The position numbers were made by a program, and so were the translations under genes. Of a stretch of 28,607 bases of DNA, positions 21,165 through 27,653 are shown piece after piece. The stretch is from a virus. Each line of letters starts with the position of its first letter. Position 1 is the first letter of the stretch. The DNA lies in IMG/VR virus record IMGVR_UViG_3300030060_006069, positions 1 to 28,607 of that record, one strand, 5' to 3'. The notes beneath the pieces are model-generated. The model made no database searches and was not told where the DNA came from. It saw only the letters and a list, made by a program, of their open reading frames with translations.

Positions 21165-21624
21165 GATGATTACAGAGGTTTTGCTTAACGCTGGGCCAAT
21201 TGGTGCATTGGCTTTGTACATGATGTATCTCAACAACAAGCAAGAGAATAAGCATGACAATCAACAAATGATGTATCTGCAAAAAATTGAGAGTATGAGA
21301 TCAAATGATGAGTCATCCAGAGAGCAGCTGCAAACCAAATATGAGCAAAGAGAGGATGCATTGAGAGACAAATATGATAGTGTCATCTCAAAAATAGATA
21401 CTGAGAGACGTGACCAAGAGAAAGATATTGCAAATCAGATGGCCAAAGCCATTGAGAAAATAGACCAAATGAGCACACGTGTTGATACTTTGAATACCAG
21501 GTTTGATGACATTAACTCAAAAATAATGAACACCAACCAAAGGCTCATACAACTTGAGACACAAGTGCAACGTTTGGATGGTGTTCTTGATGGAATCAAG
21601 ACAGGCCTGTCTAGTCGTCAATAA
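21157..21624 (+). CDS. Holin-like membrane-anchored coiled-coil protein
   Basis: 155 aa. One N-terminal membrane segment (about residues 5-25: ITEVLLNAGPIGALALYMMY) is followed by a long charged coiled coil (30-150) with heptad-type Lys/Glu/Asp/Gln spacing. One N-terminal helix plus a charged cytoplasmic tail is the layout of BhlA/UviB-type holin-like proteins, but this tail is much longer. Overlap with the lysin gene supports a lysis cassette. Alternatives are a tail or membrane-anchoring protein. RBS GAGAG. Confidence 0.5.
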   Translation: MYEMITEVLLNAGPIGALALYMMYLNNKQENKHDNQQMMYLQKIESMRSNDESSREQLQTKYEQREDALRDKYDSVISKIDTERRDQEKDIANQMAKAIEKIDQMSTRVDTLNTRFDDINSKIMNTNQRLIQLETQVQRLDGVLDGIKTGLSSRQ

Positions 21625-21727
21625 AGACAGATGCCAATGAGACCATAAAGAGCAGCAACAAAAATGCAGCAAATATGTGGCTGTTGGCAATATCGTGCAT
21701 CATGTATGCAAAATCAAGAAAGGTCAT
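21611..21727 (-). CDS. Hidden 38-aa membrane protein
   Basis: Minus-strand ORF of 38 codons, ATG at 21727 to TAG at 21611. On that strand AGGAGATTCCC stands directly before the ATG, as good as any ribosome binding site in the window. The peptide starts MTFLDFAYMMHDIANSH and continues with one hydrophobic segment (IFAAFLLLLFMVSLASVFI) that should span the membrane. A sigma70-like promoter (TTGATA at 21777-21772, 18 bases, AATAAT at 21753-21748) lies upstream. It overlaps the 3' end of the holin-like gene on the other strand. Possible roles: antiholin, pinholin, or superinfection factor. Its function is not shown by sequence. Confidence 0.55.
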   Translation of the reverse strand: MTFLDFAYMMHDIANSHIFAAFLLLLFMVSLASVFIDD

Positions 21728-21852
21728 GGGAATCTCCTATTTTTTGTATTATTTATTTGACTATAGATAAATATCAATATATTATTGACTTACGTATATA
21801 ATAATGTAATATTATTTACACGTCAATACTTATATTCAAAAAAGGAGATAAT
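21728..21852. promoter_or_regulatory. Divergent early promoter region
   Basis: Very A/T-rich. Plus strand: TTGACT (21757-21762), 17 bases, TATTAT (21780-21785) is a good sigma70 promoter. A second TTGACT (21785-21790) lies 19 bases before TATTAT (21810-21815) and may be a tandem start. Minus strand: TTGATA (21777-21772), 18 bases, AATAAT (21753-21748) drives the 38-aa gene. The divergent elements overlap physically, so transcription in the two directions may compete. AAAAAGGAGATAAT before ATG 21853 is the ribosome binding site. Confidence 0.6.
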
Positions 21853-22257
21853 ATGGTATTTTTACAAATTCAATGTGTTGCTGGTGGCACATATACAATC
21901 AACTCAGGTGCAATCACATTGCTGATGCATGGCACAGATGGTGATTTTTGGGTGCTTATGAACAAACAAAGCATACAAATATCACAGTCAACATATAATG
22001 ATATGCAGGACTTCATTGATAAGATTGTAATCTATAGCAAGCCGATTGTAACAAAGACAGACAAAGTTGAGGATTTGCAATTTACTGTAAGAACAGCAAA
22101 TTGTTTGTCAAATGCTGATGTTGTGTATGTGCATCAGTTGTTGGAGATGACTCAAACTGATTTGCTCAAAATGAAAAACATGGGCAGAAAGTCATTGAAT
22201 GAAATTAGAGAAAAACTTGCAGACAAATATGATGCAAAACTCAAAGGAGACCAATAA
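21853..22257 (+). CDS. RNA polymerase alpha C-terminal-domain-like protein
   Basis: 134 aa. Residues 72-126 are clearly homologous to the bacterial RNA polymerase alpha subunit C-terminal domain: VEDLQFTVRTANCL aligns with VDDLELTVRSANCL of E. coli, and LLKMKNMGRKSLNEI with LLKTPNLGKKSLTEI. Residues matching the E. coli UP-element contacts are all present: R80 (R265), N83 (N268), C84 (C269), G111 (G296), K113 (K298), S114 (S299), E117 (E302). The alpha N-terminal assembly domain is absent; instead there is an unrelated ~60-aa, beta-looking domain. It is the first gene after the early promoter and overlaps the next, an HTH gene. Likely role: redirecting or blocking host polymerase at selected promoters. 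Confidence 0.88.
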   Translation: MVFLQIQCVAGGTYTINSGAITLLMHGTDGDFWVLMNKQSIQISQSTYNDMQDFIDKIVIYSKPIVTKTDKVEDLQFTVRTANCLSNADVVYVHQLLEMTQTDLLKMKNMGRKSLNEIREKLADKYDAKLKGDQ

Positions 22258-22556
22258 TGACAACCGAGAACAAAACAACCATGAGATATAAGTGCTTTTA
22301 TATGTGGTTCACAAAGCATTTTTTTGAACACAATAAGACTGAGATTGCAAACAAGATTGGTGTGACAAAACAAGTCATATCTCTGTGGGCAAAAGGCAGA
22401 CAAAAACCATCATTGGAATCACTGCACAATCTGTGTTTTGAGTCAGGTGTATTTGCTGACAAAGAAGATGCACAACGTGCATTTGATGATGCAGTCAAGG
22501 CATACATTAATGATATCAAATTAGCCAAGCACAAACTCACTGGAGATATATCATAA
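22257..22556 (+). CDS. Cro/XRE-like HTH protein, paralog A
   Basis: 99 aa. A canonical helix-turn-helix lies at about 26-48 (KTEIANKIGVTKQVISLWAK), then GRQKPSLESLHNLC, as in XRE/Cro family repressors. The C-terminal part is helical. Start overlaps the alpha-CTD gene (TAATG), so the two are co-translated. It is the clearest member of a five-protein family in this window sharing an HTH, a K/R-x-x-P turn and an 'I C' helix. Confidence 0.8.
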   Translation: MTTENKTTMRYKCFYMWFTKHFFEHNKTEIANKIGVTKQVISLWAKGRQKPSLESLHNLCFESGVFADKEDAQRAFDDAVKAYINDIKLAKHKLTGDIS

Positions 22557-23603: not shown

Positions 23604-23852
23604 ATGAAACACACACACATCAAATATTGGTTTATAGCCAATGCACGTGGCATCACACAACAGCAGATTTGTGACCATGCTAATATTAACAATGGCATGA
23701 TGAGTCATTGGTTGACTGGCAAATCCAGACCAAATGCCAAAAACTGCATCATATTTTGCAAGGCCATATCAGAGATGACCAATGAGCCATTTGACAAATT
23801 GATAGTAACTCTCATGTATGCAATTGCTTGTGACATTGGCATTGAGTTATGA
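23604..23852 (+). CDS. Small HTH protein, paralog B
   Basis: 82 aa. AGGAGGTATAAAG before ATG 23604 is a strong start. HTH-like region about 14-38 (GITQQQICDHANINNGMMSHW), then LTGKSRPNAKNCIIFCKAI and a C-terminal helix. It matches the other paralogs in order and spacing. The stop overlaps the initiator gene start (ATGA). It may regulate the replication genes that follow, but no operator could be assigned. Confidence 0.7.
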   Translation: MKHTHIKYWFIANARGITQQQICDHANINNGMMSHWLTGKSRPNAKNCIIFCKAISEMTNEPFDKLIVTLMYAIACDIGIEL

Positions 23853-24412
23853 ACATGAGAAAGAAACACACTGAGCAGTTTGCTGCTACATATTTGGAGG
23901 ATTTTGCATACAAACAGAAAATGAGTGCAACAACATCATTGGTGTTTGATGCTCTCTTATTTCACTGCAAAATCATCCAACTGGATGCATCATACAGAGT
24001 GAGACAAACAAAATTTGTGAGTCAGCAAAAGATAGCTGCAATGATTGGCAAATCTGAAAGAACAGTTAGCAAAGCAATCAATGCTCTCAAAAAGATTCCA
24101 TCAGGATATATGCATCAAGATCAGTCAATATCTTTGTTGCAGGTCAAAAAAAATCAATATGGAAATGCTACATATACAATAGTAACCAACAAGCAAAATG
24201 TGCCTGATACTTCTTGTACGGATACAAAAAATGACGTGTTGGAACAAGAAGGTTTTGTACTTCCTACAAGAACACATGAGTTCGGGTATGAACAAGAACA
24301 CATGAGTTCGGGTATATATAAACAAAATAATAACAAAAATAACAAAATATTAACAAAGCAAAAAAATATAAAATTATCAATTCTGAATGAGTCAGATATT
24401 CCAAACTTCTAG
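23849..24412 (+). CDS. Replication initiator (lambda-O-like arrangement)
   Basis: 187 aa. A winged-helix DNA-binding domain is suggested by SQQKIAAMIGKSERTVSKAI (about 52-72) followed by a wing-like stretch. The rest is polar and Asn/Lys-rich, likely disordered, ending in a short C-terminal segment. The gene contains two 24-bp direct repeats read in different frames, so they are DNA sites rather than protein repeats. An initiator gene that contains its own iteron origin is the lambda O design. The following gene may be the helicase-loader counterpart. Function is inferred from this design. Confidence 0.7.
   Translation: MNMRKKHTEQFAATYLEDFAYKQKMSATTSLVFDALLFHCKIIQLDASYRVRQTKFVSQQKIAAMIGKSERTVSKAINALKKIPSGYMHQDQSISLLQVKKNQYGNATYTIVTNKQNVPDTSCTDTKNDVLEQEGFVLPTRTHEFGYEQEHMSSGIYKQNNNKNNKILTKQKNIKLSILNESDIPNF
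24266..24315 (+). repeat. Iterons: candidate replication origin
   Basis: Two identical 24-bp repeats, 24266-24289 and 24292-24315, are separated by two bases (period 26). Each contains the dyad GAAC-ACATGA-GTTC (24270-24283 and 24296-24309). Because 26 is not a multiple of three, the copies are read in different frames (RTHEFGY versus EHMSSGI), so identity is kept for the DNA. An A/T-rich stretch (24316-24380) follows directly and is a good unwinding element candidate. Confidence 0.7.
24316..24380. other. A/T-rich stretch next to iterons (candidate unwinding element)
   Basis: About 65 bases consisting almost only of A and T with scattered C and very few G (for example AACAAAATAATAACAAAAAT), within the initiator gene. 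It encodes the Asn/Lys-rich linker. In lambda-type origins such a segment next to the iterons melts first. Confidence 0.55.
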
Positions 24413-24422
24413 GAGATTCCAA

Positions 24423-25379
24423 ATGTACCAAAAACCAAACAAGCAAAAAAACATCAGACCAATGACACGCAATGAGGCAATCATTGATATTGTTGGCAAA
24501 TTCACAGTAAACTGGCCAAGATTTGACAATGCCACATGGCCACCACAGATGCAAAAACTATTATTAGGCACATTCAAGACAACTCATCCTGATACAATCA
24601 TCAAGGCTGGCTGGCATGTATTACAAAAAGTAGATGGTGATTATCCACCAAGCATGGGCAAAATAGTCAAGTCAATGGAGGCTTACATTGGTTCAGGTGC
24701 TGCAAGGTCTCCAAAGGCTGAGCAGTGTGAGAAATGCAATACTGGCTTTATATTGGTATCATTTTGGATGATACTTGATGATACATCATACAAACAAGAT
24801 GTGCAGTGTGCCTGTGATTGTGCATATGGCAAAAAGAGACAAGCAAGCATTAAAGCAATACCATTTCGAGACTTTATTGCGCTCAATACTCAACATCCAA
24901 AGAGATACATTGCAAACAGATTTGAGACTTGGCAAAAAGATTTGGGTTTATGGGTGCAGGGTGAGACATACCAGATTGATGAGATACCAACACATGATGA
25001 GCATACAGTGCGTAATAATAGCAAAGATTTGCCTCCAGTTGCATACTATGAGTATGGTTTGGATGATGCCACCAAAAAGAGGAGAGCACATTTGAGACAG
25101 TCATTGGCAGAGACAGATGAGCAAAAAACAGAGAGATTGCACAACATTGGCATTGAGATGCAAAAGGCAATCAAGCAGTTGGCAAAAAAGATGAGCATAC
25201 CTGTGCCAAATGACTTTGAGCAACTTGAGCATCAAGATGATGATAATGATGATGACTCAATCTCAGATGACAGCACTGAGGACATGCCAAAGACAGATTT
25301 TGACCAACCAAATCAAACACAAAATGATATACAAGACAAATCATTTGATGATGAGATTGACTGGCATTGGCACACATAG
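24423..25379 (+). CDS. Zinc-binding replication protein (helicase-loader-like, predicted)
   Basis: 318 aa from ATG 24423, selected for its TAGGAGATTCCAA site; an in-frame ATG at 24387 lies inside the previous gene. An N-terminal helical region (1-90, with WPRFDNATWPPQMQKLLLG and PPSMGKIVKSM) recalls the N-terminus of phage replication P-type proteins. CEKC at about 102-105 and CACDC at about 128-132 form a probable zinc site. The C-terminal 60 residues are strongly acidic and probably disordered (HQDDDNDDDSISDDSTED). Following the initiator directly, it is the best candidate for loading host helicase at the phage origin. This is an inference. Confidence 0.6.
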   Translation: MYQKPNKQKNIRPMTRNEAIIDIVGKFTVNWPRFDNATWPPQMQKLLLGTFKTTHPDTIIKAGWHVLQKVDGDYPPSMGKIVKSMEAYIGSGAARSPKAEQCEKCNTGFILVSFWMILDDTSYKQDVQCACDCAYGKKRQASIKAIPFRDFIALNTQHPKRYIANRFETWQKDLGLWVQGETYQIDEIPTHDEHTVRNNSKDLPPVAYYEYGLDDATKKRRAHLRQSLAETDEQKTERLHNIGIEMQKAIKQLAKKMSIPVPNDFEQLEHQDDDNDDDSISDDSTEDMPKTDFDQPNQTQNDIQDKSFDDEIDWHWHT

Positions 25380-25944: not shown

Positions 25945-26297
25945 TGACAACAACTACAATATTTGAGATGGCATTGAGATATGCAGAGGGTGATGGTCTT
26001 GCAGACCTGTACAAAAAGACGTTTCCAACCAGATCACATGAGCCATCAAAAGAGCAAAGAGCACTATGGAATCAAGCAAAAAAAATGTATCTCCAATCTC
26101 AGAACTGGAAACGATTGAGACAACTCAAACTGATTGATGCACAAGGCAAATGCCAAGCCCAAATGAAAGACTGCAATATATATGCCTCTGAAATACATCA
26201 CATCTCTTATTGGCATATTGGTGATGAGTGCCTTTGGGATTTGAGAGCAGTGTGCAGGTCATGCCATGCAAAGGTCTCCAAATTTGGTGGTAAATGA
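25944..26297 (+). CDS. HNH endonuclease
   Basis: 117 aa. C-terminal HNH-type zinc and catalytic region: GKCQAQMKDC, SEIHHISYW, then CLWDLRAVCRSCHAKV. Two CxxC-like pairs and the HH pair fit HNH proteins. ATG 25944 overlaps the previous stop; a TTG one codon upstream is also in frame. It might be a free-standing homing-type or packaging-associated HNH nuclease; at this position, in the early operon and far from terL, a role in DNA processing or recombination is more likely. The usual N of the motif is not clear. Confidence 0.8.
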   Translation: MTTTTIFEMALRYAEGDGLADLYKKTFPTRSHEPSKEQRALWNQAKKMYLQSQNWKRLRQLKLIDAQGKCQAQMKDCNIYASEIHHISYWHIGDECLWDLRAVCRSCHAKVSKFGGK

Positions 26298-26298
26298 G

Positions 26299-26568
26299 AT
26301 GGCAAAGAGATACAGGTTGACACACTTTGCAAGATGGATCTCCAAAGAGATTGGAGATTTGGGCATAACCAAACAGCATTTTTGTGACCAGTCAGGCATT
26401 GCAATGGGTATGCTATTTCGTTATTACACAGGTCAGCAACTGCCAAAGATAAAGACTTATATCAAGATATGCATCACACTTGCACAGTACAATCAAACAT
26501 CTCCTGAGAGATATATTGTTGCAGGAATCACAAAGATAATGATTGACATATCTGCACAAACTAAGTAA
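26299..26568 (+). CDS. Small HTH protein, paralog C
   Basis: 89 aa from ATG 26299, one base after the HNH stop (an in-frame ATG 26266 lies inside HNH). HTH-like GITKQHFCDQSGIAMGMLFRY at about 23-43, then TGQQLPKIKTYIKICITLAQ and a C-terminal helix. Pattern and length match paralogs A, B, D and E. The ribosome binding site is weak, GGTGG, so coupling is likely. It is the last gene of the early operon, followed by a terminator. Confidence 0.65.
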   Translation: MAKRYRLTHFARWISKEIGDLGITKQHFCDQSGIAMGMLFRYYTGQQLPKIKTYIKICITLAQYNQTSPERYIVAGITKIMIDISAQTK

Positions 26569-26730: not shown

Positions 26731-27036
26731 ATGATAAACTTCAAATATGATTTCACTGAGACTGGCATAACCATCCAAACAACAGACCAGAGCCATCACT
26801 TTGAGTGTGCAAGAGCAGCAGCAGATGCTGCATATGCATTGATGCAAGGTGATGATCTTGATGAGAGTCTTGACAATCAAGAGCATGTCATCATCTATGA
26901 TTGGCATGGTGACCAAGATGATTTGCTTTACATTGTGCAAAATTATGCTGAGAGCAAAGATGATGCAGATGCACTGTTTGCATCTGTATTTTTTGAAGAG
27001 GTTATGCTCAAACATCTCATCAATGGCAAAATATAA
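26731..27036 (+). CDS. Strongly acidic small protein, unknown function
   Basis: 101 aa. I count 21 Asp/Glu against five Lys/Arg, net about -16. A beta-like N-terminal third (TETGITIQTTDQSHHFEC) precedes helical segments. No family recognised. The site AGGAGACCAAC before ATG is strong. Separate transcription unit between two terminators. Acidic small phage proteins sometimes mimic DNA to block host nucleases or polymerase; charge alone is the evidence here, so this stays a suggestion. Confidence 0.7.
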   Translation: MINFKYDFTETGITIQTTDQSHHFECARAAADAAYALMQGDDLDESLDNQEHVIIYDWHGDQDDLLYIVQNYAESKDDADALFASVFFEEVMLKHLINGKI

Positions 27037-27122: not shown

Positions 27123-27485
27123 TTACTTCTCTGCTCTCTTTCGTTTTCTCTCAATATCTCTGAGCATACCATTGACCCATGCTCTAGTCTTTGAGCCACC
27201 CCAAAGAGACCAAGCAATTGCTGCTTTGCTGGTCTTATCTTTTCGTGCCTCCTTCTCTTTCTCTGACTCACCATGCCGAGCAAACCATGCTCTCATCAAT
27301 ATCAACTGTTTCTCATCAACAGAGCCTGATGCCAAACGTCTTGCAGTTCTCATGCCTGTTCCTGGTACTCTCTTATTGTTTTCATCTTTGTATGCTGCTC
27401 TCTTTGATCTTGGCAGACTGAGATTGTAATCTATTGCTTTTTGTGCTATTGCTCTCAACTCTCTTGGCACAGTGTATTTTGGCAT
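27123..27485 (-). CDS. Small phage protein of the 'FARH...LWGG' family
   Basis: 120 aa on the minus strand; AGGAGATATCAA precedes the ATG. The sequence shows features of a common phage/prophage protein family: an N-terminal PRELRAIAQKAIDYNLSLPRSKRA, then RTARRLASGSVDEKQL, ARHGES, and SKAAIAWSLWGGSKTRAWVNGML at the C-terminus. It is highly basic (ending KRKRAEK), suggesting nucleic acid binding. The molecular role is unknown to me. Its own leader lies in the divergent gap 27486-27575. Confidence 0.7.
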   Translation of the reverse strand: MPKYTVPRELRAIAQKAIDYNLSLPRSKRAAYKDENNKRVPGTGMRTARRLASGSVDEKQLILMRAWFARHGESEKEKEARKDKTSKAAIAWSLWGGSKTRAWVNGMLRDIERKRKRAEK

Positions 27486-27575
27486 TTGATATCTCCTATT
27501 GGATGATGATTAATATATTACACAAACAATCTCTGATTTGTATGATATATTATACACTATCATTGGAGATATCTC
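27486..27575. promoter_or_regulatory. Divergent promoter region with 21-bp element, copy 2
   Basis: The 21-bp repeat at 27534-27554 is identical to 1496-1516. Plus strand: TTACAC (27518-27523), a 17-base spacer and TATGAT (27541-27546) make a convincing sigma70 promoter; TATGAT is inside the repeat. TTGGAGATATCTC before ATG 27576 is the ribosome binding site. The minus-strand gene starts at the other end of the gap. Confidence 0.55.
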
Positions 27576-27653
27576 ATGCCATATAAACCAAAGCCAAAGC
27601 CAAAACCAAAGCCAAAACCAAAGCCTAGACAAATATATTGGTATTTCATTTGA
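27576..27653 (+). CDS. Lysine-proline repeat mini-protein
   Basis: 25-aa ORF: MPY, then six or seven KP dipeptides (MPYKPKPKPKPKPKPKP), then RQIYWYFI. It begins after TTGGAGATATCTC, an excellent ribosome binding site under the 21-bp promoter-like element. The C-terminal aromatic tail (IYWYF) could insert in or bind the membrane. No family recognised. It could be a secreted or membrane-active peptide, a leader peptide affecting downstream genes, or an accident of a slippage-prone repeat. The strong start argues for real translation. Confidence 0.5.
   Translation: MPYKPKPKPKPKPKPKPRQIYWYFI

Follow-up and report, generated by a model that had tools for sequence, protein, structure and literature searches.

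The stretch from 24186 to 24400 of an IMG/VR contig of an uncultivated phage is, to judge from its sequence, likely to be a theta-type replication origin lying within the reading frame of its own initiator, on the plan seen at lambda O/ori and at SPP1 gene 38/oriL. Here the window means the whole contig, which comprises 28,607 bp. The initiator-like gene was found in only two other contigs, L002/G004 (73% amino acid identity) and L004/G003 (63%), hereafter the relatives. No relatives were obtained from INPHARED (by tblastn) or from GTDB genomes, and none of five of the phage's proteins searched (0/5) matched cultivated phage records. The features of the region are as follows.

From 22556, plus strand: RusA-like resolvase, upstream neighbor
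From 22972, plus strand: DNA methylase, upstream neighbor
22257-22556, 23604-23852, and 26266-26568: small HTH-type genes near the array; that at 23604-23852 (plus strand) encodes a small HTH protein and lies directly upstream of the initiator-like gene
23849-24412, plus strand: probable replication initiator gene, 187 aa (PHROG matches and AlphaFold)
24189-24195, plus strand: possible outlying core copy, degenerate (ACAAGCA) and weak, present in the window and L002 only
24197-24353, plus strand: near-frozen synonymous sites, codons 117 to 166 (codon identity, genome scan, substitution positions)
24211-24217, minus strand: core copy a, ACAAGAA inverted, intact in all three phages
24244-24250, plus strand: core copy b, ACAAGAA (ACAAGAC in L004)
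24266-24289, plus strand: copy c, 24-bp repeat beginning with 14 nt (ACAAGAACACATGA) that do not vary among the three phages
24292-24315, plus strand: copy d, 24-bp repeat, identical to copy c in the window, core changed in both relatives
24270-24309, no strand assigned: larger inverted repeat formed from copies c and d (GAAC-CATG-inner stem-CATG-GTTC)
24313-24384, no strand assigned: G-poor A/T-rich stretch, 72 nt with 1 G, candidate DNA unwinding element
24417-25379, plus strand: downstream gene encoding about 320 aa, including a cysteine cluster; a positional candidate for the helicase loader
From 25390, plus strand: DnaQ-type exonuclease, downstream neighbor
From 25941, plus strand: HNH nuclease, downstream neighbor

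The initiator is predicted to consist of a winged helix (about residues 15 to 120) followed by a disordered tail (121 to 187); in the AlphaFold model, which has the order of helices and strands of a winged helix, pLDDT was about 75 to 90 over residues 21 to 110 and below 50 from residue 121 on. Family matches were weak throughout: PHROG profiles for a replication initiation protein (1.9e-5), a DnaD-like loader (6e-5), and O-like proteins (0.0018 and 9e-5) were hit, the best initiator family match reached 24.9 bits, and HTH_36 (0.00064) stayed under its curated cutoff. The model of the O N-terminal domain, TIGR01610, gave 11.1 bits against a cutoff of 45.5, hhalign of the protein with lambda O returned a probability of 0.1%, and Foldseek found nothing below an E value of 0.001 in the PDB and viral models, the best viral matches (E values of 0.003 to 0.015) being mostly phage proteins with HTH domains. 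The protein is thus not detectably of the lambda O family at the level of sequence comparison. A C-terminal P-binding domain of the O type was not found, as about 30 codons follow the array and the tail is predicted to be disordered. The C-terminal tip of the protein (24389 to 24409) reads ESDIPNF, and DNETPDF and DDETTPDF in the relatives; it resembles the acidic tail of SSB, which is DDDIPF.

All genes around the initiator lie on the plus strand, and a homologue of the next gene adjoins the initiator in both relatives. The product of this gene (24417 to 25379) matched nothing in Pfam or PHROG, its structure model (pLDDT of 33.8) was too poor for fold comparison with loader families, and profile comparison of the proteins with lambda O and P gave nothing significant; it is a candidate helicase loader, from gene order alone, and not detectably one of the lambda P family. 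The subset of contig genes compared with family models yielded no replicative polymerase, primase, or helicase, as would fit a phage relying on recruitment of the host replisome.

The two 24-bp direct repeats are exact (24/24 identities) and start 26 bp apart; since 26 mod 3 is 2, they are read in different frames, as the first-pass annotation had stated. This pair is the longest close repeat of the window. Close repeats did not exceed 15 bp in third-order Markov simulations of the contig (n = 100) or 18 bp in synonymous redraws of the initiator gene (n = 5,000). The internal dyads claimed for the repeats are present as well, each copy containing GAAC-a-CATG-a-GTTC (GAACaCATGaGTTC) with 12 of 14 positions paired as read off the sequence. 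Both copies begin with the heptamer ACAAGAA, which occurs five times in the contig (both strands) and four times within 90 bp (24211 to 24298), once inverted (24211) and three times direct (24244, 24266, and 24292). The array, with its two exact and two core copies, spans initiator codons 121 to 156, in the predicted disordered tail. An element of 24266 to 24380 had been proposed earlier; the repeats do lie there, but with two more cores upstream the element is larger and runs from about 24186 to 24400. The core motif is provisional because only three phages are known, and it was defined after inspection; the core of copy c is intact in both relatives. With spacings of 22 and 26 bp, the cores do not all fall on the same face of the helix, which counts against an origin.

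Directly adjoining the repeats is the easily melted A/T-rich stretch that had been reported to follow them. Of all 60-bp and 100-bp stretches of the contig, the second least stable lie within it, the corresponding stretch of both relatives ranks first to third least stable of the genome, and GTATATATAAACAAAATAATAA within it is identical across all three phages. The hexapeptide TITKEK, encoded by the A/T-rich stretch in both lambda and L004, was set aside as too short to weigh. Other A/T-rich intergenic stretches of the window (21600 to 21900 and 1440 to 1760) are without repeats. GC skew, which had no inflection at the repeats, was uninformative here.

Dyad sites under an HTH protein would look alike if they formed an operator, through which the winged-helix protein or a nearby small HTH protein controlled transcription into the downstream genes, and three small HTH-type genes do lie nearby. 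We consider it unlikely that the array is such an operator rather than an origin: the sites lie deep within a gene and adjoin a stretch that is among the least stable of the genome, and an initiator-like gene with several spaced copies next to an A/T-rich tract follows the plan of an origin.

Conservation at the level of DNA was assessed in the three phages. Over the repeats both relatives align colinearly and gap-free with the window; a newly inserted second copy, which would have caused a frameshift, is thereby excluded. Among degenerate amino acids agreeing in all three proteins, identical codons were used at 27 of 29 positions in residues 117 to 166, a boundary set after inspection, compared with 33 of 66 in the upstream residues (Fisher P = 5e-5). 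In a genome-wide scan of silent sites, with expectations set by amino acid, the stretch had a z of about 4.1 and ranked first or second for windows of 25 to 33 codons (the best window's score was matched in 3 to 8 of 400 permutations). Substitutions at codon positions 1, 2, and 3 were distributed 10:5:10, 6:3:8, and 8:4:7 in the conserved block for the three pairs of phages, and 15:14:32, 16:8:25, and 17:11:35 in the winged-helix part, where the usual third-position excess was found; the block, being without third-position bias, evolves like a DNA site and not like coding sequence. Silent sites thus vary freely in the folded part upstream and are frozen where a disordered tail is predicted, and selection on the protein would be expected to produce the opposite pattern. 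A second peak of silent-site conservation was seen at 26800 to 26971, in an ORF of 101 aa (26731 to 27036), and may hide a DNA or RNA element.

That 26800 to 26971, in another gene, is equally conserved could be taken to mean that the region at 24186 to 24400 has no function in cis, its copies having been homogenized by slippage or gene conversion and its silent sites conserved by chance, through recent exchange, or by an antisense gene. The exact repeat is indeed phage specific, with conversion-like changes, and all three phages share one minus-strand frame that is open over 24197 to 24352. An overlapping antisense gene was nevertheless rejected as the source of the conservation, since the amino acid identity of this frame (0.73, 0.86, and 0.78) does not exceed that of frames interrupted by stops. 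The conservation moreover extends beyond the repeats and ends at the winged-helix part of the initiator gene, and exact blocks of 21 to 23 nt are common to phages whose proteins are only 63 to 73% identical, which makes a region devoid of cis function distinctly unlikely.

The element as a whole is thus conserved as DNA, as the first-pass annotation had proposed in holding that DNA rather than protein identity is selected; the exact 24-bp identity is not part of what is conserved. Copies c and d are identical at 24 of 24 positions in the window, 19 of 24 in L002, and 15 of 24 in L004, and neither the exact repeat nor the dyad of copy c is conserved in the relatives. The dyad of copy d reads GCA...TGC in L004 and GAA...TTC in the other two phages, a matched change on both sides. 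At five bases of the copies the window differs from both relatives, and all five raise the likeness of c and d, replacing DDV by EFG and H by Q in the protein. By this comparison the perfect identity appears to have arisen on the branch of the window phage and to be peculiar to it, and gene conversion could explain the homogenization as well as selection for equal sites. We consider it possible, though doubtful, that this is a case of concerted evolution across reading frames, in which one site was overwritten by its out-of-frame neighbor at the cost of four amino acids, in a minimal initiator whose acidic ...DIPNF/TPDF tip imitates the SSB tail and recruits host replication proteins. If so, the DNA site would override the protein sequence of the tail.

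The inverted repeat formed by copies c and d takes a similar fold in all three phages, with an inner stem made of different bases. The strong single-strand fold of the stretch (z of -5.4, -2.9, and -2.8 in the three phages) might point to a structured mRNA element controlling how the downstream gene is translated. In the same test, however, the lambda origin, with its protein-binding dyad iterons, folded even more strongly (z of -7.7), which indicates that a row of dyad sites yields a strong fold without implying an RNA element, and after this control the RNA reading was put low. For the upstream half, different structures are predicted in the phages, no Rfam match was obtained, and the stretch lies outside the six top folds of the window scan, so that a regulatory mRNA structure is very improbable. 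On either strand, no part of the window was predicted to fold more strongly as a single strand than 27461 to 27600, which includes an inverted repeat (27480 to 27499 and 27562 to 27581) beside short CCAAAG tandem repeats.

An intergenic tandem array of G003 (27424 to 27584; L016:7424-7584) holds ten perfect DnaA boxes (TTATCCACA) in about 160 bp at alternating spacings of 20 and 12 bp, and the reverse complement of G004 carries two, 20 bp apart (24638 to 24667), at the very end of the contig, where the assembly may have broken inside such an array. The array may serve to titrate DnaA or as a second origin that depends on DnaA. That the main origin lies elsewhere, for instance in these boxes at the right ends of G003 and G004, with the in-gene sites auxiliary, is scarcely credible, as the window is without an array (one perfect DnaA box, within another gene) and all three phages retain the element inside the initiator gene.

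An origin inside the initiator gene was compared with known systems. The lambda origin lies within gene O (PMC5043065, PMC7466680), and in our lambda control the annotated iterons were at O codons 117 to 145, spaced by 20, 24, and 23 bp and followed directly by the least stable part of gene O. Four spaced dyad sites thus begin at codon 117 in lambda and at codon 121 here, with an A/T-rich stretch directly after the sites in both; the next gene is the loader gene P in lambda and a candidate loader by position here. The design of lambda O/ori, invoked in the first-pass annotation, is in this way supported by the winged-helix initiator-like gene, the dyads in the linker, the A/T-rich stretch, the compact replication region, and the constraint on DNA. 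The two differ in that the site sequences are unrelated (ATCCCTCAAAACGAGGGA versus ACAAGAACACATGAGTTCGGGTAT), one core copy is inverted here, the initiator has 187 aa and almost no C-terminal part compared with the 299 aa of O, and the proteins of the initiator-like gene and its downstream neighbor have no detectable homology to O or P. In Bacillus phage SPP1, direct repeats of oriL lie in gene 38, which encodes the origin-binding protein, and adjoin an A/T-rich unwinding element, and the phage provides its own loader (PMC6316719). By this published description the likeness extends to repeats and an A/T-rich element in the initiator gene, whereas the DnaB-type helicase and second origin (oriR) of SPP1 were not seen in the contig. 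Iterons of plasmids usually lie outside the rep gene. Like the contig, iteron plasmids carry tandem initiator sites adjoining an A/T-rich stretch; those of the contig lie within the gene and contain dyads. Initiators bind to plasmid iterons as monomers (PMC5043065).

On such a plan, the core sites would be the targets of the winged-helix protein, which would probably bind as a dimer, and the resulting nucleoprotein complex would strain and open the A/T-rich stretch (24313 to 24384). A helicase loader, of which the next gene is the probable source, would then take over the open strands and recruit the host helicase and replisome.

On each feature that sequence can test, the contig matches the in-gene origins of lambda and SPP1, from which this plan is already known, and it is most likely a fresh example. 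The region provides a concrete candidate origin for an uncultivated phage lineage, in which the lambda/SPP1 plan would recur with an initiator and a neighbor that standard family models barely recognize or miss. Homogenization across frames, if it took place, would illustrate in nature how the function of DNA can prevail over the sequence of a protein.
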